DNA of 64,000 bases from Phycisphaerae bacterium (lineage in GTDB: Bacteria; Planctomycetota; Phycisphaerae; UBA1845; Fen-1342): NCBI GenBank assembly GCA_017999985.1, contig JAGNKU010000009.1:124001-188000 (forward strand), written 5' to 3'. Each line of letters begins with the position of its first letter. Positions within the stretch are counted from its first letter, which is position 1. The notes beneath the pieces are model-generated. The model ran no database searches, was not told the DNA's origin, and worked only from the letters and a program-made list of their open reading frames with translations. Shown here piece after piece: positions 5,901 through 60,669 of this stretch. A program made the position numbers and the translations under genes.

Positions 5901-8900
5901 CCTCCCGAAGTGCTGAATACACCATCCGCGTTGCCGCCTCGTATGGTAAAGCCATCTAGCCGTGCCGACGGGCCAACTAACGTGGCGCGGATAACGTGGT
6001 ACGCGTTCTCATCGTTATGTGCGAAGTCCGGGCCATCATCGCCGCTCAGGTCACCGCTGAGGATGGTCTCGTAGCTGTCCACGTCATGAGCGTCAGGATC
6101 TGGCGCCCCACACCCGGCGTAGCCGCCCTCCACGGTCACGCCATCTACGAGTTCAAACGTAGCGTCCCGTGGATCGGCCAATGCGGCCGGGTTCGGCGTG
6201 TAGATACCATCGGCAACGTGAATTGTCGTGCCACTGGTCGCGATGGCGAGGGCCTCGTCGAGCGTTCTCAAGGCGGTGCACCACGCGGTTCCATCGAACT
6301 CGGGACCCACCGCAGCCGCGTCCACGTAAATCACGGCCGTACTCCGCAGCTCGGGCAGCATGAGGAAGTCGGAACTGGAGAGCGAGCGGTTGTGCACCTG
6401 GACGGCGAGCACATTCGTGCCCGCCACGAGCTGGTCGATGAAGCCGCTGAGGTCCACCGCCACCGGCGGACACGGCCCGGCCGGCGGGCTCGTCCCGCAG
6501 CAGGCCTCATGATCGCCCGTGGTGGCCGGCTGGTCATGGGTCGGGGGATTGGGCGCAAACTGGGCATCCACCTGCACACCGTTGAGGTAGGCGATGTAGC
6601 CATCGTCCCAGTCCATGGTGAACCCGAGGCTGGTCAGCTGGGCCGGATTCTCGATGTGGAACGCGCGGCGCGCATAGACGCTCATGTAGTTGTTCTGCAT
6701 GTCGGGCAGGTTGGTAGCGATGCAGCCCTCATAGCCGGTGGCCGCCTCGTAGCCGATGGGCGTCGGCCCGGCCAGCCAGGTCGAGTCGTCGAAGAAGACG
6801 TCCTTCCAATCCGCCGGCGGCTCCTCGATGCCCTTGAAGTACAGCCACCCGTCACCCTCTACGATCGGCAGCAGCGGGGCAAACTCGTAAGCGCCCATGT
6901 CGACGGTGCGGTTAACGATTCGGGGGTTGCCCTCCAAATCCGTACTTCGCGTAACAACCGAGTTATTACCCGCATCAATGCACGGAGAGCTGGTAGACAA
7001 TCGTAGGTCGTCATCGTCGGTGCCGGGGATGTCATCAGGCCCGTCAGCATCAACGAACAATGGGTCAGCGTCGATGTTCCCTGCGCCGGTCCAGCCTCCC
7101 TGGACGTCGCAGTAGGTGACAACGGGCGCGCCCTGAGACAAGTAGATCTCTTGCCCGTTGTCGCCCCACAGGACGCAGTTGGTCAAGTTCGGGCTGGAGC
7201 CGTAACCGCAGACCACGCCGCCGCCCCCGTCGGCGGCCGTGTTCCCGCTGATCGTGCAGCCGGTCAGCGTGGGGCTGGAAGAGTTGTAGCAGCACACGCC
7301 GCCGCCGTATTCGGCCGTGTTCCCGCTGATCGTGCAGTTGGTCAGCGTAGGGCTGGAGTACTCCTGGCAGGACACGCCTCCGCCGTCCTCGGCTGTGTTG
7401 CCTGTGACCGTGCAGTTCGTTAGCGTCGGGTTAGAGTTGTCGTCACAAGACACGCCTCCGCCTTTGCCCACGGCCGTGTTGCCTGTGATCGTGCAGTTGG
7501 TCAGCATTGGGCTGGAGTGGTCTTGGAAGTACACGCCGCCGCCGCTCCAGCCGGCTGTATTGCCCGTGATGGTGCAGTTGGTCAGCGTCGGGCTGGAAAC
7601 GTCGCAGTACACACCGCCGCCATTGCTCACGGCCGTGTTGCCGCTGATCGTGCAGTTGGTCAGACTGGAGTGGGAGCCGCCGCTGGAGCCGCAGGACACG
7701 CCGCCGCCGGCGCGGTAGGTGGCCGTGTTGCCCGTGATCATGCAGTTGGTCAGCGTCGGGCTGCCGTGCACGCCGCCACCGGCGTTGTCGCTGATCGTGC
7801 AGTTGATCAGCGTTGGGCTGCCGCCGTCCACGCCGCCACCGCCGTAGGTGGCCGTGTTGCCCGTGATCATGCAGTTGGTCAGCGTCGGGCTGGAGGACCA
7901 GCCGCAGTACACGCCGCCGCCGCTCCAGCCGGCTGTATTGCCCGTGATGGTGCAGTTGGTCAGCGTCGGGCTGGAACTATCGCAGTACACGCCACCTCCA
8001 TCGCCCGTGCCCGTAATACTCCCGTTCCGTATGGTCATTCCCTGCACGACCGAGGTAGCGATTTCACCACTGTGGAAGTAAAACCCCCGCCCGCTGCCCC
8101 CGCAGTCGATGATGCACGTGGCTGGATCGCCGCTGGCGGAGCGGACGGTGATCGCCTTGCCGCCGAAGTCGAGGTCCTTATTGCCAACCCCCGTGTACAC
8201 ACCATCGGCGATCACGACCTCGTCGCCGGGGACCGCCGCATCGATCGCCGCCTGAATGGTCGCAAACTCGCCGGGCACCTCCAGAACACCGTCACACGCG
8301 TCACCGACGCCGTCGCCGTCGGAGTCGGCCTGATCGGGGTTGGGCACGTCGGGGCAGTTGTCGGCCGCGTCAGGCACACCGTCGCCGTCCGAATCCGGAG
8401 GGAGGAAGGCGACACGGAACCCTAAGCTGGAGTACTCATCTGTCGGAGGCTTGTTGCTCCGGTTTGAGGCATGCAGGTGCAGATGTTCGTGGCTATCGAA
8501 GACAAACGCCCCGCCCCGCATGCCGCGCTCCGAGCCGCTGACCAGCGTCTCGTTCCACTCCCACACGTTGCCGCCCTGATCGAACGTGCCGTACGGACTG
8601 TCGGACAGCTCGAAAAACCCCACATTTATGCGCCAGTATGGGCCTCCGATCGTGTAGTCGCCGTCGAAGAAGTTTGCCGAATTTCCTGTATCGCCTTCCG
8701 GATTACCGTTGTTCGGGATCTCGTTAGTTCCCGTCGGGTAGTCCCAGTAGTTGCCCGTGACGCCGTCGTTCTTGTGATATGCCGCCTTGTACCACTCGTC
8801 CTCGCTCGTCACGGACCACTGCCAACCGGGGTTGCGCTGAATCTCGTAACCATCTGGCCCGTTGTAGCCGTTGAGCGTGTACGCCCCGGTCTCCGTCGTG

Positions 8901-9367
8901 CCCGGCCCCTGCGCGCCCGTCGGCTGGCCGTTGTGCAGCCAGTTGGCGAACCGGCATGAGTCCCAGTAGCTCACGTAGTTCACCGGGCGGTTCGCCCAGT
9001 AGCCGCCGGTGGCGTCATCGGCCACGCGGTACTGATACGGGTTGGCGGGAGTGCCGTCGCCGGCGTAACGCTCGATCTTGCAGCCATAGCTGTCCGACCA
9101 CATGGACGTGTTGTACAGCCCGTACGTGTCCACGCCCGCCACGGCGTTCAGAAACGCCGTGTACTGTCCGGCCGTCACCTCGTACTCGCCGACGTTGTAC
9201 GTGTAGCCCACGCCGCCGAAACTGGCCACCTCGCCGTCCGGATACCGCGTGTCCCCGGGGTTACCCGGGTTGCCCACCGGGAGGGCTTCGATGATAGTCG
9301 CTGGGTGTGCGTGGACCGCGCAGGCAGCGACCGCGAGTGCCATCAGAACCTTGCTCGTTCGATCCAT
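2942..9367 (-). CDS. Giant secreted protein: FGE-like, TSP3, three beta-helix blocks, dockerin-like end
   Basis: 2141 residues, exported. The start at 9367 is chosen because it opens a signal peptide (MDRTSKVLMALAVAACAVHA) and has AGAGGAGG just upstream. Domain order (approximate residues): sulfatase-modifying-factor/FGE-like fold 24-319 (GNVWEWNE, MRGGAF, LGFRVAF); thrombospondin type 3 calcium repeats 323-361 (DSDGDGVPDAADNCPD); right-handed beta-helix 365-756 built of SSPTLTNCTITGNTA units; jelly-roll-like domain 832-1010 (NGVQVDAQFAPN); second and third helix blocks 1016-1880, each opened by IYVD; C-terminal region with dockerin-like loops (DATGDGWQGTGD, DLDGDGWIGPED). The FGE-like part lacks the catalytic cysteines, so it is probably a binding fold and not a formylglycine generator. 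A surface adhesin or scaffold role is likely. It sits 53 bp downstream of a paralogue on the same strand. Confidence 0.85.
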   Translation of the reverse strand: MDRTSKVLMALAVAACAVHAHPATIIEALPVGNPGNPGDTRYPDGEVASFGGVGYTYNVGEYEVTAGQYTAFLNAVAGVDTYGLYNTSMWSDSYGCKIERYAGDGTPANPYQYRVADDATGGYWANRPVNYVSYWDSCRFANWLHNGQPTGAQGPGTTETGAYTLNGYNGPDGYEIQRNPGWQWSVTSEDEWYKAAYHKNDGVTGNYWDYPTGTNEIPNNGNPEGDTGNSANFFDGDYTIGGPYWRINVGFFELSDSPYGTFDQGGNVWEWNETLVSGSERGMRGGAFVFDSHEHLHLHASNRSNKPPTDEYSSLGFRVAFLPPDSDGDGVPDAADNCPDVPNPDQADSDGDGVGDACDGVLEVPGEFATIQAAIDAAVPGDEVVIADGVYTGVGNKDLDFGGKAITVRSASGDPATCIIDCGGSGRGFYFHSGEIATSVVQGMTIRNGSITGTGDGGGVYCDSSSPTLTNCTITGNTAGWSGGGVYCGWSSSPTLTNCMITGNTATYGGGGVDGGSPTLINCTISDNAGGGVHGSPTLTNCMITGNTATYRAGGGVSCGSSGGSHSSLTNCTISGNTAVSNGGGVYCDVSSPTLTNCTITGNTAGWSGGGVYFQDHSSPMLTNCTITGNTAVGKGGGVSCDDNSNPTLTNCTVTGNTAEDGGGVSCQEYSSPTLTNCTISGNTAEYGGGVCCYNSSSPTLTGCTISGNTAADGGGGVVCGYGSSPNLTNCVLWGDNGQEIYLSQGAPVVTYCDVQGGWTGAGNIDADPLFVDADGPDDIPGTDDDDLRLSTSSPCIDAGNNSVVTRSTDLEGNPRIVNRTVDMGAYEFAPLLPIVEGDGWLYFKGIEEPPADWKDVFFDDSTWLAGPTPIGYEAATGYEGCIATNLPDMQNNYMSVYARRAFHIENPAQLTSLGFTMDWDDGYIAYLNGVQVDAQFAPNPPTHDQPATTGDHEACCGTSPPAGPCPPVAVDLSGFIDQLVAGTNVLAVQVHNRSLSSSDFLMLPELRSTAVIYVDAAAVGPEFDGTAWCTALRTLDEALAIATSGTTIHVADGIYTPNPAALADPRDATFELVDGVTVEGGYAGCGAPDPDAHDVDSYETILSGDLSGDDGPDFAHNDENAYHVIRATLVGPSARLDGFTIRGGNADGVFSTSGGGLYLDTADATIENCTIAENWADVDGGGLFYFAGDFTLERCTFMDNAAGQRGGGVASTCSDSAPLVIDCKFFGNTALLGGGWLNGESSNTLMINCLFNGNHAVSGGATNYDDDSSYLGAINCTFTNNTASSLFGGVYMEVGDFVNCVLWGNSDSTGSGEGAQIECFGQCTHSYNCIQGWTGNLGGIGNIGDDPLFVDPDGPDDDPNTCQDNNFRLSPTSPCIDSGDNTPVTALTDLDGNPRVRDGDQDGTATVDMGAYEFQRVIYVDDSATGANDGSTWCDAYNYLQDAMAAAAGGVATEIRIAQGTYKPDQGEGQTPGDRQAVFQLLSGVAIKGGYAGCGQPAPDAREIALYETILSGDLNGDDLEADFPWGPTLSDNCYGVARADSAHSVLLDGIVITAGNAYSREGGGIVLLQSDATLVDCRLVRNVACNGGALYSTNSGIVLSSCRIEYNAATNYGAAVIWGGHAELYGCIFSDNYSWDDGGALIIGDDGVLTNCKFINNYGQNTGALYHGQGDCTLNDCIFVGNRADYLAGAIFSSGSSITLTGCTLIGNRTSDDGAGGLRNYVGAAMVTNCIFWDNRNAAGADEASQITITGGQVAVSYSAIAGLDLFASQPGNIGLEPLFEDPGYWDDNGTPDVSDDVFVVGNYHLQPGSPCIDAGNNAAVPLDTLDLDGDGDTTERMPFDLDGLPRFVDEPGTGDTGLPDLPDYPAVVDMGAYEFQSACDHNGIINVTLHVEGLGVYNPPVTRTVTFITTDCVTSHQETIAVDVTFTANPVTIVLPGIDTTADWIQAREGHTLGTLLPLQFGVDCSATVSFTGDNHLRSGDFSNPPSVLQDDLVDIVDFAILAIYWNDPVDPNLGSLADATGDGWQGTGDFTVIQINFGQISDPPSGCGTLAQQQNQMVPEVAVEPLAVRMPVAALGIPGAPAADLDGDGWIGPEDIRRFAAQHRLVLRPDFRARLARLEALFPIEAEEEPVPTGRLE
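7150..8040 (-). repeat. Tandem coding repeats of the first beta-helix block
   Basis: On the plus strand the phrase GTGCAGTTGGTCAGCGT recurs about every 75-90 bp with variable sequence between, because each helix turn is coded by nearly the same DNA (peptide unit SSPTLTNCTITGNTA plus a GGGVYC turn). Identity between units and with the paralogous gene (9900-10660) is high at the DNA level, which favours unequal recombination and gene conversion. Confidence 0.85.
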
Positions 9368-9420
9368 GTCACGGCCTCCTCTTCTGTCACGATGTGCACT
9401 CGCGCGCCGAACCCACAGAG

Positions 9421-11019
9421 TCAACCGCCCGCGAGCAGCGTCACGAACGGGTTGATGTCGGCGAAGCTCACGTACCCGTCGCCGTTGATGTCGGCCAGCA
9501 TGATGTCGCAGTTCGGGTACTGCTCCTGGTAACCGCCCCAGCTTGTCAGCGCGAGCACGAATGGATTGATGTCGCCGAAGTCGATCTCGCCGTCACAGTT
9601 GAGGTCACCGTAGGCGTGTGAGCCGAACTCGTAGGCCCCCATGTCGACGATCGCCGTCCCGTCGCCGTTGCCGTCCCAGACGCGTTGATTGCCGTCCAGG
9701 TCGGTCTCGCCCGGCGTGGGCACGAAGTTCGGGTCGCCGGCGTCGATGCAGGGCGAACTGGACTGCACGCGGAAATCGTCGTTGTCAGGTTCGACGAAGA
9801 GCGGATTGCTGTTGATGTTTCCCGTCCCGGCATAGCCGCCTTGAACGTCGCAGTAGGTCACGACGGGGCTGCCCGAAGAGACGTAGATTTCCTGAGGCGT
9901 GTTGGCCCAGAGAATGCAGTTGGTCAGCGTCGGACTGGAGGTGGAGGTGCAGTACACGCCGCCACCGTAGAGGCTGGCTGTGTTCTCTGCGATCGTGCAA
10001 TTGGTCAGCGCCGGGCTGGAGTACGAGCAGTACACGCCGCCGCCAGCCCCGAGCGACGTGTTTCCACTGATCGTGCAGTTAGCAAGCGTCATGCTGGAAC
10101 CTTCCTCCGAGGCCACCCCGCCGCCAGCGCCGAGCGATGTGTTTTCACTGATCGTGCAGTTAATCAGCGTCGCGCGGGAGTACTCCCAGCAGCGCACGCC
10201 ACCGCCACCACCATTATCCGTGATCGTGCAGTGGGTGAGCACCAGGTCGCATGATTCGCACCCCACGCCCCAGGCGTTCTGCGTGATCGTGCACTGGGTC
10301 AGCGTCGCGTTGGAGGCTTCGAAGTAAACGCCACTCCCATCGTTACCCACGATCGTGCAGCAGGTCAGCATCGGGCTGGAAAACGAGATGTCCGCGCCAT
10401 TGCCGTTGCCCATGATCGTGCAGTTGGTCAGCGTCGGGCTGGAGAACTCGCCACTCACACCGTTGCCGTTGCCGGTGATGGTGCAGTTTGTCAACGTCGG
10501 GCTGGAGTTGTAGCAACACACGCCTGACCAGTAGTTACCGGTGATCGTGCAATTGGTCAGCGCCGGGCTGGAGCCATAGCAGTACACGCCGCCGCCGGTG
10601 TTGCCCGTGATGGTGCAGTTGGTCAGCGTCGGGCTAGAGGAGTCGCAGTACACGCCGCCGCCGGCGTCCATGTTCCCGTTGCTGATCGTCAGACCCTGCA
10701 CGATCGCAGCAGCGCTTTCCCCGCTATGGAAGTAGAAGCCGCGCCCGCTATTCTCGCAGTCGATGATGCACAGGGCCGGGTTCCCGCTCGCCGAGCGCAC
10801 CGTGATCGCCTTGCCGCCGAAGTCCAGGTCCTTGTTACCCAGTCCGGTGTAGATTCCATCGGCTACCAGGATCTCGTCGCCGGGAACCGCCGCATCGATC
10901 GCGGCCTGAATCGTCGGGTATTGGCCGGGGACGTGTCGCTCCGTCGCCCACGCCGGCAGACTCACCGATCCGACGAGAATCAACGCCGGAAAAACCAAGC
11001 CAATTCGCGGTCTTTTCAT
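9421..11019 (-). CDS. Secreted right-handed beta-helix protein with dockerin-like C terminus
   Basis: 532 residues. The start at 11019 has a purine-rich Shine-Dalgarno (GGAAAGGGTGG) and opens a signal peptide (MKRPRIGLVFPALILVGSVS). Residues about 30-115 (PTIQAAIDAAVPGDE, NKDLDFGGKAITVRSASG) nearly repeat the opening of the first helix of the neighbouring giant protein. About twelve helix turns (SSPTLTNCTI type) follow, a DLDGNQRV / VDMGAYEF closing motif, and two dockerin-like calcium loops (DLNCDGEIDFGDINPFV; DINGDGYVSFADINPFV). Function unknown; surface binding or polysaccharide contact is the usual guess for this fold. It lies directly upstream of the giant gene and is probably its duplicate without the FGE-like and later helix blocks; the two may be co-transcribed. 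Confidence 0.85.
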   Translation of the reverse strand: MKRPRIGLVFPALILVGSVSLPAWATERHVPGQYPTIQAAIDAAVPGDEILVADGIYTGLGNKDLDFGGKAITVRSASGNPALCIIDCENSGRGFYFHSGESAAAIVQGLTISNGNMDAGGGVYCDSSSPTLTNCTITGNTGGGVYCYGSSPALTNCTITGNYWSGVCCYNSSPTLTNCTITGNGNGVSGEFSSPTLTNCTIMGNGNGADISFSSPMLTCCTIVGNDGSGVYFEASNATLTQCTITQNAWGVGCESCDLVLTHCTITDNGGGGGVRCWEYSRATLINCTISENTSLGAGGGVASEEGSSMTLANCTISGNTSLGAGGGVYCSYSSPALTNCTIAENTASLYGGGVYCTSTSSPTLTNCILWANTPQEIYVSSGSPVVTYCDVQGGYAGTGNINSNPLFVEPDNDDFRVQSSSPCIDAGDPNFVPTPGETDLDGNQRVWDGNGDGTAIVDMGAYEFGSHAYGDLNCDGEIDFGDINPFVLALTSWGGYQEQYPNCDIMLADINGDGYVSFADINPFVTLLAGG

Positions 11020-12226: not shown

Positions 12227-13501
12227 TCAGCCGATGCGCTGGGCGACCTCGATTGCGAGTGCCCGGTCGCGCTCGGCGTACAGTTGCGACGTCTCCAGCT
12301 TGCTGTGCCCGAGACAGGCGCCGACCTGCTCCAGCCCGTACTGCCGGCGGACGGCGGTCGCGAACGCGTGCCGAATCTGATTCGGTGCCCACGTGTGCTC
12401 ACGGCGCCACGTTCGGCGTTCATCGTCGGCGAGACCCGCAGGGGCGGGGAATGCCAGGTCGCACGCCCGCCGGATCGCCCGGGCGTAGCTCATGGTCGTG
12501 TAACGCTCGTGGGGCCGGCGGCGCGGATTCGCCCGGCGGTTGGTCCCGGGGCGGTTGCCACATGATGCCGGGGTCTTGCGTGCCTTGTGCATGGCATCGC
12601 GGCGCTCGGCTTCGGCTTCGCGCGGATCGAATAGGTAGGCGTTCACGTCCGCGCGCATGAACCGCCGGATCACGTCCTGCCCCTTGGGGCCGATGGCGAC
12701 AACGCGCTCCGTGCCGCGCCAGTCCAGCTTGAGTTCGGTCACCTTCCAGAGCCACACGGGACCGCTCATGTCGATATCGACCGCCCGGCAGCGGACCGCT
12801 TCACCGGGGCGACAGCCCGTGAAGCGCTGGAGTTCGATCAGGCCCCACACCTGCCGCGACACGTGCGGCTGGACAGCATCTACCAGCGCGTCGGGCACCG
12901 GGCGGACCGGTTCGGTCTCGGGGGCATCGGTGCGGCCGCGCTTCAGACCTTCAAAAGCGGTCAGAGCATGATGCACGCTCGGCGGGACCAGTTCGCGGGC
13001 GACGCCCCACTTGAACACGTGGCGCACGCGGGCGACGTAGCGGTTGACGGTGGGGCGGGACAGTCCCTCAGACACGAGCCGCGCCTGCACGAGTTCCAGC
13101 TTGCGGGGACCGAATTCGGCGGCGGGTGTCAGACCGTACAGTACGCGCAGGGGCCGCAAGACGCGTTCGATGTTCGCGATTCGCGCCGCATTCATCCCGC
13201 CGTCTCGGTCGCGATAGTACGACTCGGCGTACTCCAGGTACCGCAGGATCAGTTCGGACACGACCAGGGCGGGGCGCTCGGGCTCGGGGGCACGCCGGCC
13301 GTTGGCGAGCCATGCTGCGACGGCCGCGTTGTACTTCTCGATGCTCGCAGCAGTGGCGTAGTCGCCGAGATACACGTCGTGGCGGTCGATCGTCACGACG
13401 GCGTAGACGCGGCGGTTGACGACCTTGCGACGGTAAGCCGGGACGCCGGGCTGTTTTGGGGGGACGGCGGGAAGTGGCGTTTTTGACGTTCTGCGGGGCA
13501 T
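12227..13501 (-). CDS. Tyrosine recombinase / phage-type integrase (first of two)
   Basis: 424 residues from the ATG at 13501, chosen because earlier in-frame starts run into non-coding sequence. The N-terminal half (about 20-200) is a SAM-like core-binding domain (LSRPTVNRYVARVRHVFKWG). The catalytic half carries the first Arg in TGCRPGEAV, the Arg box NQIRHAFAT with Asn in place of the usual first His, and the nucleophile Tyr in LGHSKLETSQLYAE. It cuts and rejoins DNA at att sites. A loop rich in Arg/Pro before the Arg box (RRANPRRRPHERY) is an insertion relative to the minimal fold. It points away from the other island genes, which lie on the plus strand beyond the 620-bp repeat-rich gap. 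It is not closely similar to the second recombinase at 15747. Confidence 0.88.
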   Translation of the reverse strand: MPRRTSKTPLPAVPPKQPGVPAYRRKVVNRRVYAVVTIDRHDVYLGDYATAASIEKYNAAVAAWLANGRRAPEPERPALVVSELILRYLEYAESYYRDRDGGMNAARIANIERVLRPLRVLYGLTPAAEFGPRKLELVQARLVSEGLSRPTVNRYVARVRHVFKWGVARELVPPSVHHALTAFEGLKRGRTDAPETEPVRPVPDALVDAVQPHVSRQVWGLIELQRFTGCRPGEAVRCRAVDIDMSGPVWLWKVTELKLDWRGTERVVAIGPKGQDVIRRFMRADVNAYLFDPREAEAERRDAMHKARKTPASCGNRPGTNRRANPRRRPHERYTTMSYARAIRRACDLAFPAPAGLADDERRTWRREHTWAPNQIRHAFATAVRRQYGLEQVGACLGHSKLETSQLYAERDRALAIEVAQRIG

Positions 13502-13619
13502 TTGTGCGACCTCCGATCGACCGCGACGGTAAATTACCGTCCGTTCCCGGTCTCTCAGGCCGCACCGCCCCACGCGGGCGGGTACGCTAAGTTGTGCGTT
13601 CGGCAGAACTTACGTCCAC

Positions 13620-13807: not shown

Positions 13808-14001
13808 GGTTTGTGTAATGTTAGCAAGTTATGATGAAAAACCAGCGTTGTCGCCGCTTCTGCACAGCCCGTAGCGTTTCGGAGACATCAAACCGCAACC
13901 AATTGTAAATCATCGAGTTGAGACAAATTGAATTCTCAACACGAATGCCTTTGACGTCCACAACATCTTGGGCTATATTAATGGTTGCCCCCTAGATGTG
14001 G
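13808..14001 (+). repeat. Promoter module, island copy (also found upstream of nrdJ)
   Basis: About 195 bp, shared with 32408-32605 in inverted orientation. A 33-nt block (13845-13877) is identical in both copies and a 69-nt block (13933-14001) differs at one position; the AT-rich DNA between them is clearly more diverged. A short inverted pair GGTTT/AAACC brackets the left end in both. The 69-nt block contains a near-consensus promoter and an imperfect stem CCAC/GTGG, ATCT/AGAT, GGG/CCC (13958-14001). Similarity stops sharply after 14001. It lies 122 bp before the first gene of the island operon. Confidence 0.85.
13951..13979 (+). promoter_or_regulatory. Sigma-70-type promoter of the island operon
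   Basis: TTGACG, 17-bp spacer, TATATT, with the predicted start near 13986, giving a leader of about 138 nt to the ATG at 14124. The same hexamers and spacer occur upstream of nrdJ. It is embedded in the imperfect hairpin 13958-14001, so binding of a regulator or DNA structure could control it. Confidence 0.75.
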
Positions 14002-14123
14002 TCCCCACATTAACGACGCGATCGACTCCGCTGTCGTCGCGGCCACGTGTGAATGCCGTCTGTCTTGGCGGCCCCCCCTTTTCGGCGGAAGCGTCTTTAC
14101 ACGCTACACGCCAGGGTGAACAC

Positions 14124-14324
14124 ATGCCAGAGAAGCTGTTGTCGGTCGGCGCCATCGCGCGCGCGCTGGCGGTGCCTGTGCACCGCGTGAAATACTTGAT
14201 TCAAAGCCGGCGGATTCAGCCGGCGGGACGCGTCGGCAACGCCTGGGCATATCCGGTCGAGGTGCTCTCGCGAATCCGCACGCTGCTGGAGCACGGCGGA
14301 TCGGGCAGGGAGCGCGACCTGTGA
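14124..14324 (+). CDS. Small helix-turn-helix DNA-binding protein (excisionase-like)
   Basis: 66 residues. The start at 14124 is chosen because upstream in-frame codons lie in the shared promoter leader. The sequence LLSVGAIARALAVPVHRVKYLIQSRRIQPAGRVGNAWAY, given here in outline, has the MerR/excisionase winged-helix layout: helix, turn, recognition helix (VHRVKYLI), then a wing with a Gly-Asn. Proteins of this type bend DNA at att sites or act as small repressors. Its stop overlaps the next gene by 4 bp (GTGA), so the two are translationally coupled. Confidence 0.72.
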   Translation: MPEKLLSVGAIARALAVPVHRVKYLIQSRRIQPAGRVGNAWAYPVEVLSRIRTLLEHGGSGRERDL

Positions 14325-14704
14325 GCCTCATGAGTCGGCTGCGGTCTGCGGACCGCGCGGCCGCTCGGCGGCGAGAACGCGAGGGCTGCGGGCTCAAGTG
14401 CCCGATGTGCGGCGGGTGGCTCCGTGGGCGCGTCAGCAGCCTAACGGGGCGCGGGTTTCTGGGGTGCGAACGCTGGCCCGACTGCACTTTCACGATGACC
14501 TATGGCGAGGCGAGGGCGCTGCCGACAGTGCGCAGACGCTCAAAGAAGCGTCCTAGCCGACCGGTTGGAACTGTGCACATGGTGGCGTGCGAGCGGTGCG
14601 GGTCGGCGTTCCCGATTCGGTCAAAAGAGGTGCCGCCGCCGCCGCTGATCTGCACACGCTGCACGATGATGGCGCCGACACGGACAAGCCAACGATGGGT
14701 CTAG
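14321..14704 (+). CDS. Zinc-finger protein with topoisomerase-type C4 motif
   Basis: 127 residues with a GTG start overlapping the stop of the upstream gene; an ATG at 14330 is the alternative. Two Cys4 modules are visible: CPMCGGWLRGR...GCERWPDC (residues about 27-55), which matches the zinc ribbon found at the end of type IA topoisomerases, and CERCGSAF...CTRC (about 90-115). The N terminus is Arg-rich. Likely a nucleic-acid-binding accessory protein of the island; there is no catalytic domain. Confidence 0.65.
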   Translation: MSLMSRLRSADRAAARRREREGCGLKCPMCGGWLRGRVSSLTGRGFLGCERWPDCTFTMTYGEARALPTVRRRSKKRPSRPVGTVHMVACERCGSAFPIRSKEVPPPPLICTRCTMMAPTRTSQRWV

Positions 14705-14871: not shown

Positions 14872-15510
14872 ATGGTTGACGCAGATCACGCGTCCGGCTC
14901 GCGCTGGCGGACGTTTAACCGGTTCTGCGACGGGTGCCTGCCCGGTCTGTCGCGGGGCGCGCTGGTGACGTGGTGCATCCTGTTTCGGCACGCGAAGCCA
15001 GACGGAAAAGTGCGGTTGTCCCAGGCGCGTTTGGGACGGACGGGCGGTATGAGCGTGGCAACGGTGCGGCGGGCGATTCGGGAGCTTGAGCGGCGTGGGC
15101 TGCTTGTCACGGTCACGCGTGGGGATCGCAACAGCGGGCCGAGCTGGTACATCGTCCATGCGCGTGAACGGGTTCCAACCGCTGACAACGAGTGCCCATC
15201 GGGTAGCGCCGATGAGCGCTTTACGGGGCGCGTGTGTGATTGCCTTGCGGCTAGCGCCGGTGAGCGGCATTACAGAAGAAACAGAGGATCGGGCAAGCAC
15301 TGGCGCTTGAGCGGTCGCGCTGGCGTAGCCCCCAGCGAAGCCACCGCGACCGCGCCCCCAGCTCGTGGCACACGGGGCTGCGGAGCTTGCGGGGACGATC
15401 GATCCGGCCAAGGGCGTTTGACGGCGCATGGAACCGGGGGCACAGTAAATGAGCGTCGGCGAGCTGCCGGCGTGACACACGAACACGCGGCAAAGCGCCG
15501 CAGGCGGTGA
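14872..15510 (+). CDS. Winged-helix protein, replication-initiator-like N terminus
   Basis: 212 residues. Residues about 10-95 look real: FNRFCDGCLPGLSRGALVTW and GGMSVATVRRAIRELERRGL form the HTH_36-like winged helix found in plasmid and phage replication proteins and GntR-type regulators. From about residue 105 the sequence becomes Arg/Gly/Thr-rich without recognisable structure, so a frameshift or decayed C terminus is possible. An AT-rich segment just upstream (TATGATATATTACACT, 14840-14855) may carry its own promoter. It is followed by a GTG start one base after its stop. Confidence 0.55.
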   Translation: MVDADHASGSRWRTFNRFCDGCLPGLSRGALVTWCILFRHAKPDGKVRLSQARLGRTGGMSVATVRRAIRELERRGLLVTVTRGDRNSGPSWYIVHARERVPTADNECPSGSADERFTGRVCDCLAASAGERHYRRNRGSGKHWRLSGRAGVAPSEATATAPPARGTRGCGACGDDRSGQGRLTAHGTGGTVNERRRAAGVTHEHAAKRRRR

Positions 15511-15746: not shown

Positions 15747-17069
15747 ATGGCGAGCATAACGACACATGACGGCCGACGTGCGATTCAATTCACAGGCGCG
15801 GACGGCCGGCGCAAGACCTTGCGGCTCGGCGTGATTTCCCAACGCGACGCCGAGAGCGTGCGCGGCCACGTTGAACGGCTGTTGCAGGCAGCTCAGTTGG
15901 GAACGGCTGCCCCGCCGGACGTGCTCGCGTGGGTGGCGACGCTCGGAGACTCTCCCTACAGCCGGCTGGCTCGCGTGGGGCTAGTGGCGTCGCGTGAGAA
16001 CGCAACGCTTGGAGCATTCGTCAATCGGGTGCGCGACAACATGACGGGCAAGGAATCGACGCGCACATCAGACGGACACACACTGCGGAACCTCGCGGAC
16101 TACTTCAGCGACGGGAAACGGCTACGCGATATCGCGCCGGCAGACGCCGATGCGTGGCGTGTGTGGCTCGTGGAGCATGAGAAGCTATCCCAGCCGACGA
16201 TTGCGCGGCGTGTGGTTGCGTGTCGGACGCTCTGGCGTCGGGCTATCCGCTGGGGACTCGCATCGGTCAATCCATTTGTGGGCGTGAAAGCCGGGCACCA
16301 AGCGAACGAAGCTCGCAAGGCGTTTGTGCCGCGTGAAACTATCGACCGCGTACTCGCTCAGGTACCCGACACTGAGTGGCGAGTTATTATCGCGTTGTCG
16401 CGGTACGGCGGACTGCGGTGCCCGTCCGAGATATACGCGCTGCGCTGGGGCGACCTGGATTGGGAGCGCGGGGCTCTTCGGGTTCCATGTCCGAAGCTCG
16501 CTCATATCGAGTCGTGCGCGTTCCGCACCGTGCCGCTGTTTCCCGAACTCCGCGTGCCACTACTGGAGCTGTTCGCGGAAGCTGAGCCGGGCACGGAGCA
16601 CGTTATCACGCGGCACCGGCTCGGGTGTGAGAATCTGCGGCAACAGCTCATGCGCTTCATAACGCGAGCCGGCCTGAAGCCGTGGCCCAAGCTGTTCCAC
16701 AATTTGCGAGCAAGCCGGGAAACCGAGCTGATGCGTGAATACGACCTCGCGACCGTCTGCAAGTGGATCGGCAACAGCCCAGCAATAGCGGCTAAGCACT
16801 ACGCCATGTCCATCGACCTTAACGCCGACTTCGCACGGGCTACGGGGGGCACAGTAGAAGCGACGCAAAAAGCGACGCAGCAAGCGTCCGCATTGGCTCG
16901 CACGGCGCAACCGCCGAAAACGGCTCATGGCGATAACACAAGCGATTGCGAACACTTGCGGGACAGTGCGGAGAAGTGCGAAAACGGACAACCATATCCA
17001 ATGGGCGATACTGGGCTCGAACCAGTGACCTCGTGCATGTCGAGCACGCGCTCTAGCCAACTGAGCTAA
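15747..17069 (+). CDS. Tyrosine recombinase (second), ending inside a tRNA gene
   Basis: 440 residues. The start at 15747 (MASITTHDGRRAIQF) is preferred over earlier in-frame codons that overlap the excisionase. The N-terminal part is an arm-binding/SAM-like region; the catalytic domain shows Arg in GGLRCPSEIYALRWGDL, the box LFHNLRASRETEL and Tyr in WIGNSPAIAAKHYAM. The last 22 residues (GDTGLEPVTSCMSS...) are the antisense translation of the tRNA-Val gene, with the stop at 17067-17069. Integrases whose att site is a tRNA 3' end often finish this way, so the tRNA is the probable attachment site. The Tyr is about 85 residues before the end, so the tRNA-derived tail should be dispensable. Confidence 0.9.
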   Translation: MASITTHDGRRAIQFTGADGRRKTLRLGVISQRDAESVRGHVERLLQAAQLGTAAPPDVLAWVATLGDSPYSRLARVGLVASRENATLGAFVNRVRDNMTGKESTRTSDGHTLRNLADYFSDGKRLRDIAPADADAWRVWLVEHEKLSQPTIARRVVACRTLWRRAIRWGLASVNPFVGVKAGHQANEARKAFVPRETIDRVLAQVPDTEWRVIIALSRYGGLRCPSEIYALRWGDLDWERGALRVPCPKLAHIESCAFRTVPLFPELRVPLLELFAEAEPGTEHVITRHRLGCENLRQQLMRFITRAGLKPWPKLFHNLRASRETELMREYDLATVCKWIGNSPAIAAKHYAMSIDLNADFARATGGTVEATQKATQQASALARTAQPPKTAHGDNTSDCEHLRDSAEKCENGQPYPMGDTGLEPVTSCMSSTRSSQLS

Positions 17070-17075
17070 TCGCCC
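17002..17075 (-). tRNA. tRNA-Val (anticodon GAC), probable attachment site
   Basis: Cloverleaf on the minus strand: acceptor GGGCGAT/ATCGCCC, D-stem GCTC/GAGC, anticodon stem CGTGC/GCACG with loop TCGACAT, T-stem ACTGG/CCAGT with TTCGAAC, discriminator A, CCA not encoded. The anticodon is GAC. Position 33 is C where U is almost universal. The 3' half is overlapped antisense by the integrase gene. Confidence 0.88.
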
Positions 17076-29245: not shown

Positions 29246-32200
29246 TCAGCAGGCCGCCCAGCCGCAGGCCTGGTTCGAGCACTTCCGACAGCCTTCCTGC
29301 AACATCAACGGGCTGCCGCACTCGGGGCACATGACCTTGTAGTGCGTCGCCGCGTCGTGCCGATGCGTGACGGTACCCAGCACCGCCGTGATGTCCGAAG
29401 CCGTTAACGCGCGCCGCTCGCTCGCCGTTGCTGCCGCGACCGGCGCCGCTGCGGTCACGGTCGCCTCCGTCCAGACGGCCTGCTCGGCCACGTACTCGGT
29501 TGTCGCCTCCTCGAGCTCTGCAATCGCGAGGGCCGTCTCCAGCGCCTGGTACCCGTCTCCGTGGCCGTTCCCGCTGTTGCCATTGCCGCCGTGAATGGCT
29601 TGCGGCGGGGCCGCGCGGGTCGAGCGCTGTGCCGCGCGCGCGGCCAGCACGTCGATCGGCCGATCGACACTCAGCGGTGCCGCGCGGACGCCGGCTTTGG
29701 GCGCATTGCCGAGGTCGGGCGTCACCGGCCGATCCACCGGCGTGGTTTGCGGGTGATGCGGGGGCGGGTTCGGGTTATCGAGCTCGCGGAGGTCGATCTC
29801 GCCCAGCAGCAGGCTGCGGAGGCCGAAGCGCTCCTTGGCCCGCAGGTACTTCTTGATCGCGCAGGCCAGCCCGTCGGGCAGGGACATGATGCGGCCGCTG
29901 CGGGTCGGGATTTGCAGCGAAGAGCCGATGCCCTCCCACTGCTTGATCAGCGGGCGGATGCCGCCGCCGGCCCGCAGCCAGAGCGACGCCGTTCGGCAGA
30001 TGGCCTCGAGGTCGCTGTTGGCGACATCGCCGCCCTTGCCGAGCTGGGCGAAGATCTCGATCTCGCGGTTCGTGCACGGATCAACGGTGATCTTGACGTG
30101 CATGTTGCCGAAGGGCGTCATCTGGCGGATGCGCAGGCCGGACACGATCTCGGGCAGATCCATGGGCTCGATCGGCGGCGGCACGGCCAGCGGCTTGCCG
30201 GAATCGCTGGCTGCCGCCGGCGCGGGGGCCGGAGACGGCGCAGTGCGCACCGGGACGGTTGCCGGTTCGCGCGCCGCGGCGCTGGCGGACGGCGCCGCGC
30301 CCGTCGCATCTTCCTCCTCTGCGTTATCCTGGGCCGGCGCCGCATGGCCCGCACAATCCTCCTGCGGCTTGAGCGACATCGGCTGCTGGGCGCGGCACTG
30401 ATCGCGGTAGACCGTCACGCCTTTGCAGCGCAGGCCGTACGCCAGGCTGTAGATCTGCTCGACGTCCGCGCGTGTGGCGTCCTTCGGGAAGTTGATCGTC
30501 TTGCTGATCGACGAATCGCAGTGCCGCTGGAAACCGGCCTGCATGCGCATGTGCCATTCGGGCGTGATGTCGTGCGCGCAGACGAAGACGCGTTTCACGT
30601 CCTCCGGCACCTCGTCGATGTGGGCCAGCGTGCCTTCGCGCGCGATCCGCTCCAGCAGCGCATCGCTCAGGAACCCGCGCCGCTGCGCGACCTCGCGGAA
30701 CGTCCCATTCACCTCGACCAGCGGCTTGTCACCCTGCACCTGGCCGCGCAGCACGTTGCGAATGAACGCCAGCGAGAACATCGGCTCGATGCCGCCGGAG
30801 CAGTCCGCGATGATGCTGATCGTGCCGGTGGGCGCGACGGTCGTGACCGCGGCGTTGCGCATCACGCGGTTGTGCTGCATGTGCCAGATGCTGCCCTTCC
30901 AGTTCGGGAAGCAGCCGCGCTCGCGGGCGAGCTCCTCGCTGCAGCGATGGGCCTCGTCATTCAGGAACTTCATGAAACGCTCGCCCCAGGCGACACCCTC
31001 ATCGCTGTTGTACGCTACGCCCAGCTTGAACAGCGCGTCGGCGAAGCCCATGACGCCGAGGCCGATCTTGCGGTTATCGTGGCAGATCCGCTCGATTTCG
31101 GGCAGCGGATAGTTGTTCGCGTCGATGACGTTGTCCAGGAAGCGCGTCGCGACGTGGATGTCCGCGCGCATCGCGTCCCAGTCCACGTCCGCCTCGGGCG
31201 TGCACGCGCTGCGCACGTACTTGCCCAGGTTGATGCTGCCGAGGTTGCAGGCCTCGTACGGCAACAGCGGCTGCTCGCCGCAGGGGTTCGTCGCCTCGAT
31301 GCGCCCCAGCGCCGGCGTAGGGTTGTGCTCGTTGATGCGATCGATGAACACCACGCCCGGCTCGCCGGTCTGCCACGCGTTGTGGACGATGATGTTCCAG
31401 ATGTCGCGCTTCGTGTAGACGCGGTCGCGCAGTGCCTCGGGCAACGGGCCGGTCAGCCGCGGCGAGCGATAGTAAGTCTCGCGTGTGTTCGGCGGTACCG
31501 GCTCGACGCAGTCCACCTCGGTCAGGTCACGCACCGTGTACTGCCAGATCTCCACGTCGCGCGGGATCACGAAGGCCTTGCCGTTGCGCGGGTTGCGCAC
31601 GACGTGCGGCGAGTCGGCGTCCGCCAGGAACTCGTCCATCCAGGCGTCCGTCACCTTCACCGAGATGTTGTAGTTGGTGAACTGATTCAAATCCTGCTTC
31701 GCGTGCAGGAACTTCAGGATGTCGGGGTGATGGATGTACATCATCCCCATGTTCGCCCCGCGACGGAACGCACCCTGCTGGATCGCGTTCGTCGCCTCGC
31801 TGAAGGCGCGCCAGAAGCTGATCGGGCCGCTGGTCGTGCCGCCGCTGGACTTGATGAAGTCACCCGTCGGCCGCAGCTCGTCAAACGCGAAACCGGTCCC
31901 ACCACCGGCCTTCTGAATCAGCGCGGTGTGCTTGATGCTGTTGAAAATGTCCACGATGGAATCGCGGACCGGCAGCACGAAGCACGCCGACAGCATGCCC
32001 ATCTCGCGCCCCGCGTTCATCAGCGTGGGCGAGTTTGGCATGAAGCCGCCGCCAGTCATCAGCTTGTAGAAGCGGTCCTCCCAGCGGCGGCGGTCGATCT
32101 CCGTCGCGCCGTAGAGCGTCTCGACATTGGCGATGGTCCGCGCGACGCGGTGAAACAACTCGCCGGGCCCCTCCACGCAACGCCCGGACTCGTCCTTTTT

Positions 32201-32290
32201 GAGGTAACGGGCCTCGAGCACCTTGCGCGCATTTTCCGTCAGATCGGGCTCATCCATGAAGGGCGCATTGGCGCAGTCCACAACTGCCAT
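29246..32290 (-). CDS. nrdJ: Class II (adenosylcobalamin-dependent) ribonucleotide reductase
   Basis: 1014 residues. It reduces ribonucleotides to deoxyribonucleotides with a B12-generated thiyl radical. Visible: substrate-site Cys in LSACFVLP, the loop QKAGGGTGFAFDELRP, the NPCGEQPLLPYEACNLGSIN motif with the thiyl Cys, Asn and Glu of the finger loop, PTGTIS phosphate loop, and GVTVYRDQCR at the end of the barrel. A Pro/Ala/Ser-rich linker of about 75 residues (650-725) leads to a TSCPD domain (about 735-840: TVDPCTNREIEIF), then another flexible linker and a C-terminal zinc ribbon (CPECGSPLMLQEGCRKC, ending CGWAAC) carrying the redox cysteines. The leader is about 133 nt from a promoter module shared with the island. 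Confidence 0.95.
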   Translation of the reverse strand: MAVVDCANAPFMDEPDLTENARKVLEARYLKKDESGRCVEGPGELFHRVARTIANVETLYGATEIDRRRWEDRFYKLMTGGGFMPNSPTLMNAGREMGMLSACFVLPVRDSIVDIFNSIKHTALIQKAGGGTGFAFDELRPTGDFIKSSGGTTSGPISFWRAFSEATNAIQQGAFRRGANMGMMYIHHPDILKFLHAKQDLNQFTNYNISVKVTDAWMDEFLADADSPHVVRNPRNGKAFVIPRDVEIWQYTVRDLTEVDCVEPVPPNTRETYYRSPRLTGPLPEALRDRVYTKRDIWNIIVHNAWQTGEPGVVFIDRINEHNPTPALGRIEATNPCGEQPLLPYEACNLGSINLGKYVRSACTPEADVDWDAMRADIHVATRFLDNVIDANNYPLPEIERICHDNRKIGLGVMGFADALFKLGVAYNSDEGVAWGERFMKFLNDEAHRCSEELARERGCFPNWKGSIWHMQHNRVMRNAAVTTVAPTGTISIIADCSGGIEPMFSLAFIRNVLRGQVQGDKPLVEVNGTFREVAQRRGFLSDALLERIAREGTLAHIDEVPEDVKRVFVCAHDITPEWHMRMQAGFQRHCDSSISKTINFPKDATRADVEQIYSLAYGLRCKGVTVYRDQCRAQQPMSLKPQEDCAGHAAPAQDNAEEEDATGAAPSASAAAREPATVPVRTAPSPAPAPAAASDSGKPLAVPPPIEPMDLPEIVSGLRIRQMTPFGNMHVKITVDPCTNREIEIFAQLGKGGDVANSDLEAICRTASLWLRAGGGIRPLIKQWEGIGSSLQIPTRSGRIMSLPDGLACAIKKYLRAKERFGLRSLLLGEIDLRELDNPNPPPHHPQTTPVDRPVTPDLGNAPKAGVRAAPLSVDRPIDVLAARAAQRSTRAAPPQAIHGGNGNSGNGHGDGYQALETALAIAELEEATTEYVAEQAVWTEATVTAAAPVAAATASERRALTASDITAVLGTVTHRHDAATHYKVMCPECGSPLMLQEGCRKCSNQACGWAAC

Positions 32291-32407
32291 CCTAGAACTC
32301 CTGTTTCCGGGATGCGACGTTTATCTCTAGTGCCAATCAGGACCGACGTGCCGGCGAATGGAACAGCGACGCCGAATCGATGCCCCACCCAGGTCGGACC
32401 GAGATGG

Positions 32408-32605
32408 CCACATCTAGGGGGCAACCATTAATATAGCCCAAGATGTTGTGGCCGTCAAAGGCATTCGTGTTGAGAATTTGATTTCTCTTAAATCGAGTAT
32501 ATACAATGGGTTGTGGTTTTGTGTCGCCGAGACGCTACGGGCTGTGCAGAAGCGGCGACAACGCCGGTTTCTCATCACATTTCGCTAACATTACGCAAAC
32601 AAACC
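32408..32605 (-). repeat. Promoter module, nrdJ copy
   Basis: Inverted copy of 13808-14001. The 33-nt block lies at 32532-32564 (identical), the 69-nt block at 32408-32476 (one difference). The variable stretch between keeps its length and AT-richness but not its sequence. It fills most of the 380-bp gap between nrdJ and the zinc-ribbon gene; the remaining 32291-32407 is the nrdJ leader and 32606-32670 shows nothing. Confidence 0.85.
32430..32458 (-). promoter_or_regulatory. Sigma-70-type promoter of nrdJ
   Basis: Reading the minus strand: TTGACG (32458-32453), 17-bp spacer, TATATT (32435-32430), start expected near 32423. It lies within the imperfect stem CCAC/GTGG, ATCT/AGAT, GGG/CCC at 32408-32451. 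No B12 riboswitch box is seen in the leader. Confidence 0.75.
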
Positions 32606-34058: not shown

Positions 34059-34151
34059 GGTGCCGCTATCATAAGCGCGTCGCTGGCGAATGTCCGCGCG
34101 GCGCGGAGGAAGGCGGTGGCCACTGCGCTGCCTCAGAATTGCCCCCACCAC

Positions 34152-34207
34152 GGGTGGTGCGGGCGTCTTGCCCGTCCGCACGACGGGCGGGACGCCCGTA
34201 CCACCCC
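34152..34207. repeat. REP-like palindrome, copy 1
   Basis: A near-perfect inverted repeat with 25-bp arms. The left arm starts GGGTGGTGCGGGCGTCTTGC, the spacer is CGCAC, the right arm ends GACGCCCGTACCACCC. It lies in the 236-bp spacer between divergent genes (amidohydrolase minus, radical SAM plus). The same family occurs at 50302 and, truncated, inside the gene at 59503. Confidence 0.85.
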
Positions 34208-34294
34208 TCCAAGCGGTAACTTTCGAGGCGGCAGCACGCCGGCACTGCTCCAGAGCAGTGGCACGGCGACGGGTGCGCCGACACAATACCGTCC

Positions 34295-50237: not shown

Positions 50238-50301
50238 AACACGCCTCCGTCAGCGTCTTCCCAAGAGCCCGTGACCCGCGCGGGGCACGCCCCAATTACC
50301 C

Positions 50302-50356
50302 GGGTGGTACGGGCATCTTGCCCGTCGCCGTGGCGGGCGGGACGCCCGCACCACCC
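50302..50356. repeat. REP-like palindrome, copy 2
   Basis: Same family as 34152-34207: left arm GGGTGGTACGGGCATCTTGC, right arm ending GACGCCCGCACCACCC. It sits in the spacer between the pepT start and the end of the protease gene. Confidence 0.85.
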
Positions 50357-50436
50357 TCCCAAAGGCACCGCCTCCCCACGGCGGTGCCGTAGTCTGCACC
50401 GGCGCCACGCCGGTCGCAAGCGCCGGCCGCAACGGC

Positions 50437-59506: not shown

Positions 59507-60669
59507 ACCCCATGCCGCGCGATGCCGACCTCGATCCCGAACTCGCCCGCTACAGCCGCCAGCTGCTGTTTGCCCCGCTTGGCGTCGCCGGCCAGCGCCG
59601 CCTGCGCCAGGCCACGGTGACGCTCATCGGCTGCGGCGCCCTCGGCTCGGCGCTCGCCAACCTACTCGTCCGCGCCGGCGTCGGCGCGCTCCGCATCGTC
59701 GATCGCGATTTCATCGAGCTGAACAACCTCCAGCGCCAGACGCTCTTCGACGAGCACGACATCGCCCAGAATCTGCCCAAGGCCGAGGCCGCCGTCCGCA
59801 AGCTCCACAAGATCAACTCCGCGGTCGAGCTCGAGGGCCTCGTATCCGATGTGCACGCCGGCAACATCGCCGACCTGTGCCGCGCTGCGGACCTGATCCT
59901 CGACGGGACTGACAACCTGGAGACGCGCTACCTCATCAACGACTTCGCCGTGCGCGCGGATATCCCGTGGGTCTACGGGGCGTGTCTCGCGGCGTCGGGG
60001 CTCGTGCTGCCCGTCCGCCCCCATCAGACGCCGTGCCTGCGCTGTCTCTGGGAAAACCCGCCGGCCCCCGGCACCACGCCAACGTGCGACACGGCCGGCA
60101 TCCTGGCCGCCACCGCGAACATCGTCGCCAGCCTGCAGGCCACAGAAGCCATGAAATTACTGGTCGGCAGCGGGCAACCCCCGATTCGGCCGGCGGATGC
60201 AGCACGCAGCGCACCGACCGGCGGCCGCCTGTTCACGATCGACGTGTGGGCCGGCCGCATGCGCACTGTCAATGTGCAGGCTGCATTCGACGAAGGTGAT
60301 TGCCCGTGCTGTCGGCAGGGCCGCTACGAGTTTCTCAGCGGCGCGCGCACCGCGGCCAGCACCACCCTCTGCGGCCGCGACGCCGTGCAGATCCTCCCCG
60401 CAGACACGGGTGGCACGAGCGTCTCGGGTGGTGCAGGAGTCTCGGGTGGTACGGGCGTCTCGCCCGTCGCGGATGCAAAGAAGCTGAGCTTCAAGGCCAT
60501 CGCCGACCGGCTCCCCCCACGCTCGAACCCCAAGTGGAACGAATTCATGCTGAAGTTCACGGTCGAGGGGTTCGCTGTGACCCTCTTCCCCGACGGCCGC
60601 GCGATCATCCAAGGCACCAGTGACCCCGCCATCGCCCGCGGCGTCTACGCGAAATACATCGGCATCTGA
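59503..60669 (+). CDS. ThiF/MoeB/HesA-family E1-like adenylyltransferase
   Basis: 388 residues. E1 fold: RYSRQLLFAPLGVAGQRRLR, ATP site TLIGCGALGSALANLLVRAG, IVDRDFIELNNLQRQTLFDE, DGTDNLETRYLINDFAV with the adenylating Asp, and a zinc site from CLRCLW and CPCC. The C-terminal 60 residues (FTVEGFAVTLFPDGRAIIQG) are a short extra domain seen in some MoeB/ThiF homologues. It activates the C-terminal Gly of a ubiquitin-like sulfur carrier (MoaD or ThiS type); no carrier gene is adjacent. Residues about 303-325 (TGGTSVSGGAGVSGGTGVSP) come from a repeat inserted in frame at 60408. Coupled to the membrane protein upstream. Confidence 0.9.
   Translation: MNPMPRDADLDPELARYSRQLLFAPLGVAGQRRLRQATVTLIGCGALGSALANLLVRAGVGALRIVDRDFIELNNLQRQTLFDEHDIAQNLPKAEAAVRKLHKINSAVELEGLVSDVHAGNIADLCRAADLILDGTDNLETRYLINDFAVRADIPWVYGACLAASGLVLPVRPHQTPCLRCLWENPPAPGTTPTCDTAGILAATANIVASLQATEAMKLLVGSGQPPIRPADAARSAPTGGRLFTIDVWAGRMRTVNVQAAFDEGDCPCCRQGRYEFLSGARTAASTTLCGRDAVQILPADTGGTSVSGGAGVSGGTGVSPVADAKKLSFKAIADRLPPRSNPKWNEFMLKFTVEGFAVTLFPDGRAIIQGTSDPAIARGVYAKYIGI
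60408..60470. repeat. Truncated REP-like units inserted in the E1-like gene
   Basis: Three tandem left-arm units of the family at 34152 and 50302: GGGTGGCACGAGCGTCTC, GGGTGGTGCAGGAGTCTC, GGGTGGTACGGGCGTCTC, the last continuing to GCCCGTCG. The right arm of the palindrome is missing. The length keeps the reading frame and codes for a Gly/Ser/Val linker. Confidence 0.85.

Follow-up and report, generated by a model that had tools for sequence, protein, structure and literature searches.

The window, by which we mean the whole stretch of 64,000 nucleotides analysed here, comes from a Phycisphaerae bacterium and contains one regulatory sequence twice, in opposite orientations. One copy faces the compact four-gene operon of an integrase island, and the other lies upstream of nrdJ, the gene for a B12-dependent ribonucleotide reductase (RNR). 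The two sites comprise the following features, with bit scores of the copies referring to the model R1 described below.

13809 to 14001, plus strand: island copy of the nrdJ regulatory module (59.2 bits with R1)
14124 to 14324, plus strand: island gene 1, 66-aa HTH_17 protein (Xis/MerR-like); a second island of the genome has a homologue before its HTH_36 gene
14321 to 14704, plus strand: island gene 2, topoisomerase-type C4 zinc ribbon (E 7e-8), overlapping gene 1 by 4 bp
14872 to 15510, plus strand: island gene 3, HTH_36/replication-initiator-like (Pfam HTH_36; PHROG replication initiation, E 5e-9)
15747 to 17069, plus strand: island gene 4, tyrosine integrase, 3' end running into tRNA-Val; the ORF is open from 15642
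17002 to 17075, minus strand: tRNA-Val(gac), presumed attachment gene, its 3' end next to the integrase gene
29246 to 32290, minus strand: nrdJ, B12-dependent ribonucleotide reductase, 1014 aa (TIGR02504, 679 bits, cut-off 400)
32408 to 32600, minus strand: host nrdJ copy of the module (60.4 bits with R1)

The island is probably a tRNA-Val integrase element, perhaps immobile today. A preliminary description of this DNA had called it mobile, which agrees with its gene content, but no exact att repeat (at least 12 bp) of the tRNA end was found within 31 kb upstream. Related cassettes of HTH_36 gene, integrase gene and tRNA gene are present in other Phycisphaerae at Met, Leu, Ala, Gly, and Thr tRNA genes. 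A search for a defence role of the island genes returned nothing beyond a weak HTH match, and this role was rejected; a 528-aa ORF neighbouring the island had no usable homologue in the family. A second tyrosine integrase gene (12227-13573, minus strand) is divergent from the island operon and lies 0.5 kb from the promoter module. Elsewhere in the window, positions 7232-10672 hold many 60- to 90-bp repeats within two long ORFs of 2160 and 541 aa on the minus strand, which probably encode repetitive beta-helix-type surface proteins, and a palindromic repeat family, GGGTGGTRCGGGC...GCCCGTACCACCC, occurs in inverted and direct copies at intergenic-looking positions (34151-34212, 50301-50362, and 60443-60470).

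Two copies of the nrdJ regulatory module

The two copies form a gap-free inverted repeat of 193 bp (13809-14001, plus strand, against 32408-32600, minus strand) with 22 mismatches, corresponding to 89% identity. The preliminary description had placed the repeat at coordinates 1 and 5 bases away from these, and its estimate of about 120 bp to the start codons is close to the measured distances of 122 bp at the island copy (ATG at 14124) and 117 bp at the nrdJ copy (ATG at 32290). A search of the genome (5.23 Mb, 31 contigs) yielded no third copy. Pairwise alignment of the two copies also bore out the mosaic conservation described earlier, with two conserved blocks.

13845 to 13877, plus strand: left block, 33 bp without a mismatch
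13931 to 14001, plus strand: right block, 70 of 71 positions identical

The 53 bp separating the blocks have the same length in both copies and contain 14 mismatches (26% divergence). Under random placement of the mismatches, a near-identical run of 71 bases with one mismatch has P ~0.006, and a clean run of 33 bases in the left part of the repeat has P ~0.013. The core carried 1 mismatch in 71 positions compared with 21 in 122 outside it (Fisher P 0.0006, for a partition into core and flanks chosen post hoc, after inspection of the data).

A DNA search of the family detected weaker matches to the repeat in eight other genomes, each directly upstream of nrdJ. We gathered the nrdJ upstream regions across the order, aligned those of the family members and built the model R1 (54 positions) from 18 family nrdJ upstream regions, leaving out both copies of the window. 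R1 recognized both window copies with 59-60 bits and gave no further match above 5 bits in the window, confirming the earlier proposal that the island carries the host promoter for dNTP synthesis. Within the family (27 genomes), only the genome of the window had two strong matches and the others had at most one. The search of 397 genomes of the class resulted in 25 matches from 24 genomes; by their positions relative to the nrdJ genes, 24 of the matches lie upstream of nrdJ, including the nrdJ copy of the window; the exception is the island copy. Consistent with this, a degenerate exact-pattern scan of GTDB genomes retrieved nine loci in Phycisphaerae, each of them before nrdJ. The module was not present at any other island in the 27 family genomes or the 397 class genomes. 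Thus, the earlier suggestion that the blocks recur elsewhere holds for the nrdJ genes of relatives, but not for replication genes or for other integrase islands of the class. These searches identify the repeat as the entire cis-regulatory module of the host nrdJ, with its predicted NrdR boxes included.

Predicted operator and core promoter

NrdR has been described as a repressor specific to RNR genes. The box A sequences of 22 relatives served to construct a weight matrix, whose mean score we followed along the nrdJ upstream regions. Relative to box A the score peaked at 0, +31/+32, -65, and -96/97. At p<0.003, all 22 relatives had a box at +31/32, 16 had one at -65 and 10 had one at -96/97, whereas control offsets gave 0-1 of 22. 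The module combines a sigma-70-like promoter with a proximal pair of predicted NrdR boxes (A and B), a distal pair (D2 and D1) and a direct repeat at the left edge.

13809 to 13825, plus strand: conserved direct repeat GTTTG-N5-TGTTAGC with 11-bp period, left module edge; putative factor site
13862 to 13877, plus strand: predicted NrdR box D2 (GCACAGCCCGTAGCGT), outermost, degenerate here (p 0.011 in both window copies; 10 of 22 relatives)
13893 to 13908, plus strand: predicted NrdR box D1 (CCGCAACCAATTGTAA) (p 0.0009; 16 of 22 relatives)
13951 to 13979, plus strand: core promoter TTGACG-N17-TATATT (10 of 12 matches; conserved in relatives)
13958 to 13973, plus strand: predicted NrdR box A (CCACAACATCTTGGGC), between -35 and -10; best scoring, in all relatives
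13989 to 14004, plus strand: predicted NrdR box B (CCCCTAGATGTGGTCC), 31 bp centre-to-centre from A with a 15-bp spacer (22 of 22 relatives at +31/32)
32405 to 32420, minus strand: nrdJ copy, predicted box B (weight-matrix offset scan)
32436 to 32451, minus strand: nrdJ copy, predicted box A (weight-matrix offset scan)
32501 to 32516, minus strand: nrdJ copy, predicted box D1 (CCACAACCCATTGTAT) (weight-matrix offset scan)
32532 to 32547, minus strand: nrdJ copy, predicted box D2 (weight-matrix offset scan)

The predicted boxes form two tandem pairs, each with the canonical spacer of 15-16 bp. The spacer of NrdR sites has been measured as 15-16 bp (PMC12051234), and the 31/32-bp period of the boxes corresponds to it, which supports their identity as NrdR boxes. 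When the island copy was compared with the NrdR consensus acaCwAtATaTwGtgt, two boxes matched, A strongly and B with p 8.5e-5; D1 and D2 scored weakly. A and B lie on the same helical face, with A between the -35 and -10 elements and B immediately after the predicted start, which places the proximal pair around the -10 and start region; the distal pair is 65-96 bp upstream of box A. Within the aligned segment, the -35 and -10 elements and boxes A and B did not differ between the two copies. The promoter TTGACG-N17-TATATT is present in the right block where the preliminary description had seen it. Its reading of the left block as a regulator site can be made more specific: the 33-bp identical block contains the outermost position of the second pair of NrdR boxes, D2, but that box is degenerate in this species.

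A TGTTAG-type match precedes nrdJ in 16 of the 22 relatives, in most of them between -139 and -143 relative to box A. The direct repeat, some 140 bp before box A, has the consensus [AG]TT[AC]G-N5/6-TGTTAG[GC]. Its 11-bp spacing is reminiscent of OmpR/PhoB-type sites. The copied segment extends from this outermost conserved motif on the left to the end of box B on the right.

Genome-wide, there were three tandem pairs with at most one mismatch, two of them the window copies, and none with a reversed-pattern control. The third pair is perfect (C7:275903-275943; L120:1501) and lies before an ORF for a collagen-like lipoprotein, just after a tRNA gene; it may be due to chance. None of 13 related island loci had a tandem NrdR pair. 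A second island of the same family (C8:238500-249500; L100) has HTH_17/MerR-like, HTH_36, and integrase genes and no NrdR boxes.

The genome encodes an intact NrdR (C1:485325-485768; 177 bits against a cut-off of 125). The two best boxes upstream of nrdR itself are 32 bp apart, and one relative has a tandem box pair 68 bp before nrdR, both of which fit autoregulation of nrdR. The comparisons establish the identity and completeness of the module, the grammar of its predicted operator, the presence of NrdR and the position of the island copy before the operon.

Possible control of the island by dATP

NrdR requires dATP together with ATP (or ADP) to bind DNA and repress, and it is released when dATP falls (PMC9110341). 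We propose that the complete NrdR-controlled promoter and operator of nrdJ was copied before the island operon, so that NrdR silences the island and a fall in dATP derepresses it; we assign this reading a probability of roughly 0.7. Loaded with ATP and dATP, NrdR would occupy the tandem boxes over the -10 and start region, with the second pair upstream, and keep the island silent. DNA synthesis during active replication, repair or phage infection would drain dATP and release NrdR, and nrdJ would then be transcribed together with the Xis-like, initiator-like, and integrase genes of the island. Because lytic phage infection raises the NrdR regulon in pneumococcus (PMC6755750), phage attack would be a plausible trigger of island expression. 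We infer NrdR binding, repression, transcription of the island and any effect on its excision or replication.

We considered whether the module reached the island by passive capture. Recombination could have put the nrdJ promoter before the island, which would be transcribed from it, with NrdR control bringing no benefit and being under no selection; the block pattern would then reflect a recent origin plus chance, or divergence of two real nrdJ promoters before the transfer. We regard this as unlikely, although it is the most probable of the alternatives. The island is the single such case among 397 genomes, the clustering of mismatches has modest P values (0.006-0.013) and the changes that could be polarised are evenly distributed (6 in the island copy, 5 in the nrdJ copy, 11 without clear polarity), all of which passive capture would accommodate. 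It accounts less well for the ends of the segment, which coincide exactly with the edges of the module, and for the aligned parts of the -35, the -10, and boxes A and B, which are the same in both copies, against 26% divergence in the middle. Moreover, if the island copy had drifted alone, about 6 changes would be expected in the core and 1 was observed (P 0.013, post hoc). This suggests that selection acted on the island copy of the module in particular. The preliminary description had suggested selection on the two blocks; the core comparison points that way for the island copy but, being post hoc, does not prove it, and the conservation of the blocks could be older than the capture and date from a time when both copies were nrdJ promoters.

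Two other explanations fared worse. nrdJ genes often have cobalamin riboswitches, and the preliminary description had noted an imperfect hairpin around the promoter, both of which would suit an RNA element (a leader, hairpin or riboswitch) in the blocks. However, no Rfam family was found at the site and the putative hairpin in the right block, whose arms are the two NrdR boxes and which leaves the -35 element outside, folds no better than shuffled sequences (z -0.23), so the hairpin was abandoned. Conservation also stops near the predicted transcription start, and therefore most of the module would stay untranscribed. We rejected the RNA element as very improbable. The idea that the repeat is a dispersed or transposable non-coding element with no regulatory role is still less probable: two similar copies in opposite orientation would suit such an element, but there are two copies only in 5.2 Mb, and across the class the element is otherwise always single and before nrdJ. 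One of the outcomes that the preliminary description had named as refuting its proposal, a plain dispersed repeat, thus did not hold, and this explanation was rejected on the genome and class searches.

As a carrier of the host nrdJ operator module, the island would be, to our knowledge, the first integrative element tied to the dATP/ATP sensor instead of SOS.

NrdR-type box pairs in viral contigs and comparison with known systems

We scanned viral contigs for two strict NrdR boxes (CACWANATNTWGTG) at NrdR spacing, together with phase-shifted controls. At NrdR spacing, the two forms of the first box gave 115 and 114 stretches, respectively, in overlapping sets. The controls gave 9 when half a turn out of phase, 21 when one turn longer and 0 with a changed box centre, so that the pairs are strongly enriched and depend strongly on helical phase. 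There were 136 distinct viral pair sites among the loci examined (for example L271:10345, L242:2854, L127:2821, L185:2245, and L153:5114, from the viral loci L123-L275), and 15 of 156 viral pairs fell inside a long ORF. When we classified the 20 largest unrelated proteins adjoining viral pairs, 13 belonged to head and packaging functions (6 portal, 3 large terminase, 2 small terminase, 1 scaffold, and 1 head protease), 4 were a DNA ligase, a ParB/methyltransferase, a repair exonuclease, and an antirepressor, and 3 had no assigned function; none of the 20 was an RNR. The temperate phage Javan536 has one pair before its antirepressor gene. Phage Naby, related to one viral group by its portal gene, has no NrdR pair before that gene, so the pair does not count as an ancestral trait of portal operons. 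We also searched the viral contigs for the planctomycete promoter pattern in its exact form and obtained no match. We found no published description of NrdR pairs before phage genes within a literature coverage that was partial.

Together with the island, these sites raise the possibility that co-option of the host NrdR operator to gauge dNTPs is common among mobile elements and phages. NrdR would keep their genes for excision, replication or late packaging off at high dATP and release them upon dATP drain. The island of the window would then be one case, by a captured promoter, of the same co-option; we give this combined reading an even chance. The viral enrichment is a lead rather than a demonstrated mechanism. 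Some of the contigs with pairs may be host-derived, and the viral pairs may instead be the operator of a phage repressor with an NrdR-like operator grammar. If the enrichment holds, the lifting of NrdR by dNTP drain would be how some phages and islands sense ongoing replication, and any targeting or deletion of NrdR would have to take a wider regulon into account.

Among integrative elements, the three tRNA-targeting elements of Phycisphaerae that we compared (L102, L104, and L107) resemble the island in having an HTH_36 gene followed by an integrase gene that runs into a tRNA gene. Unlike it, all three encode a DnaB-like helicase, to which two of them add a primase, and they have no NrdR boxes; the island is shorter and has the nrdJ module. 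Prophages under LexA/SOS control and the ICE SXT are integrative elements controlled by a host signal. The predicted arrangement is alike in that an operon for excision or replication would be under a host stress or replication regulator, but the signal here would be the dATP/ATP ratio read by NrdR and not RecA/LexA. With the NrdR-controlled RNR promoters of Streptomyces coelicolor nrdRJ, E. coli nrdHIEF, and S. pneumoniae nrdHEF, the module shares paired palindromic boxes, a 15- to 16-bp spacer and an overlap with the RNA polymerase site; nrdR is present, and the host copy lies upstream of a class II RNR. It differs from them by two pairs, hence four box positions, by the additional direct repeat upstream and by a second copy that precedes an integrase island and not an RNR gene. 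The kind of regulator is already known, and what is new is its placement on a mobile element and the four-position operator.
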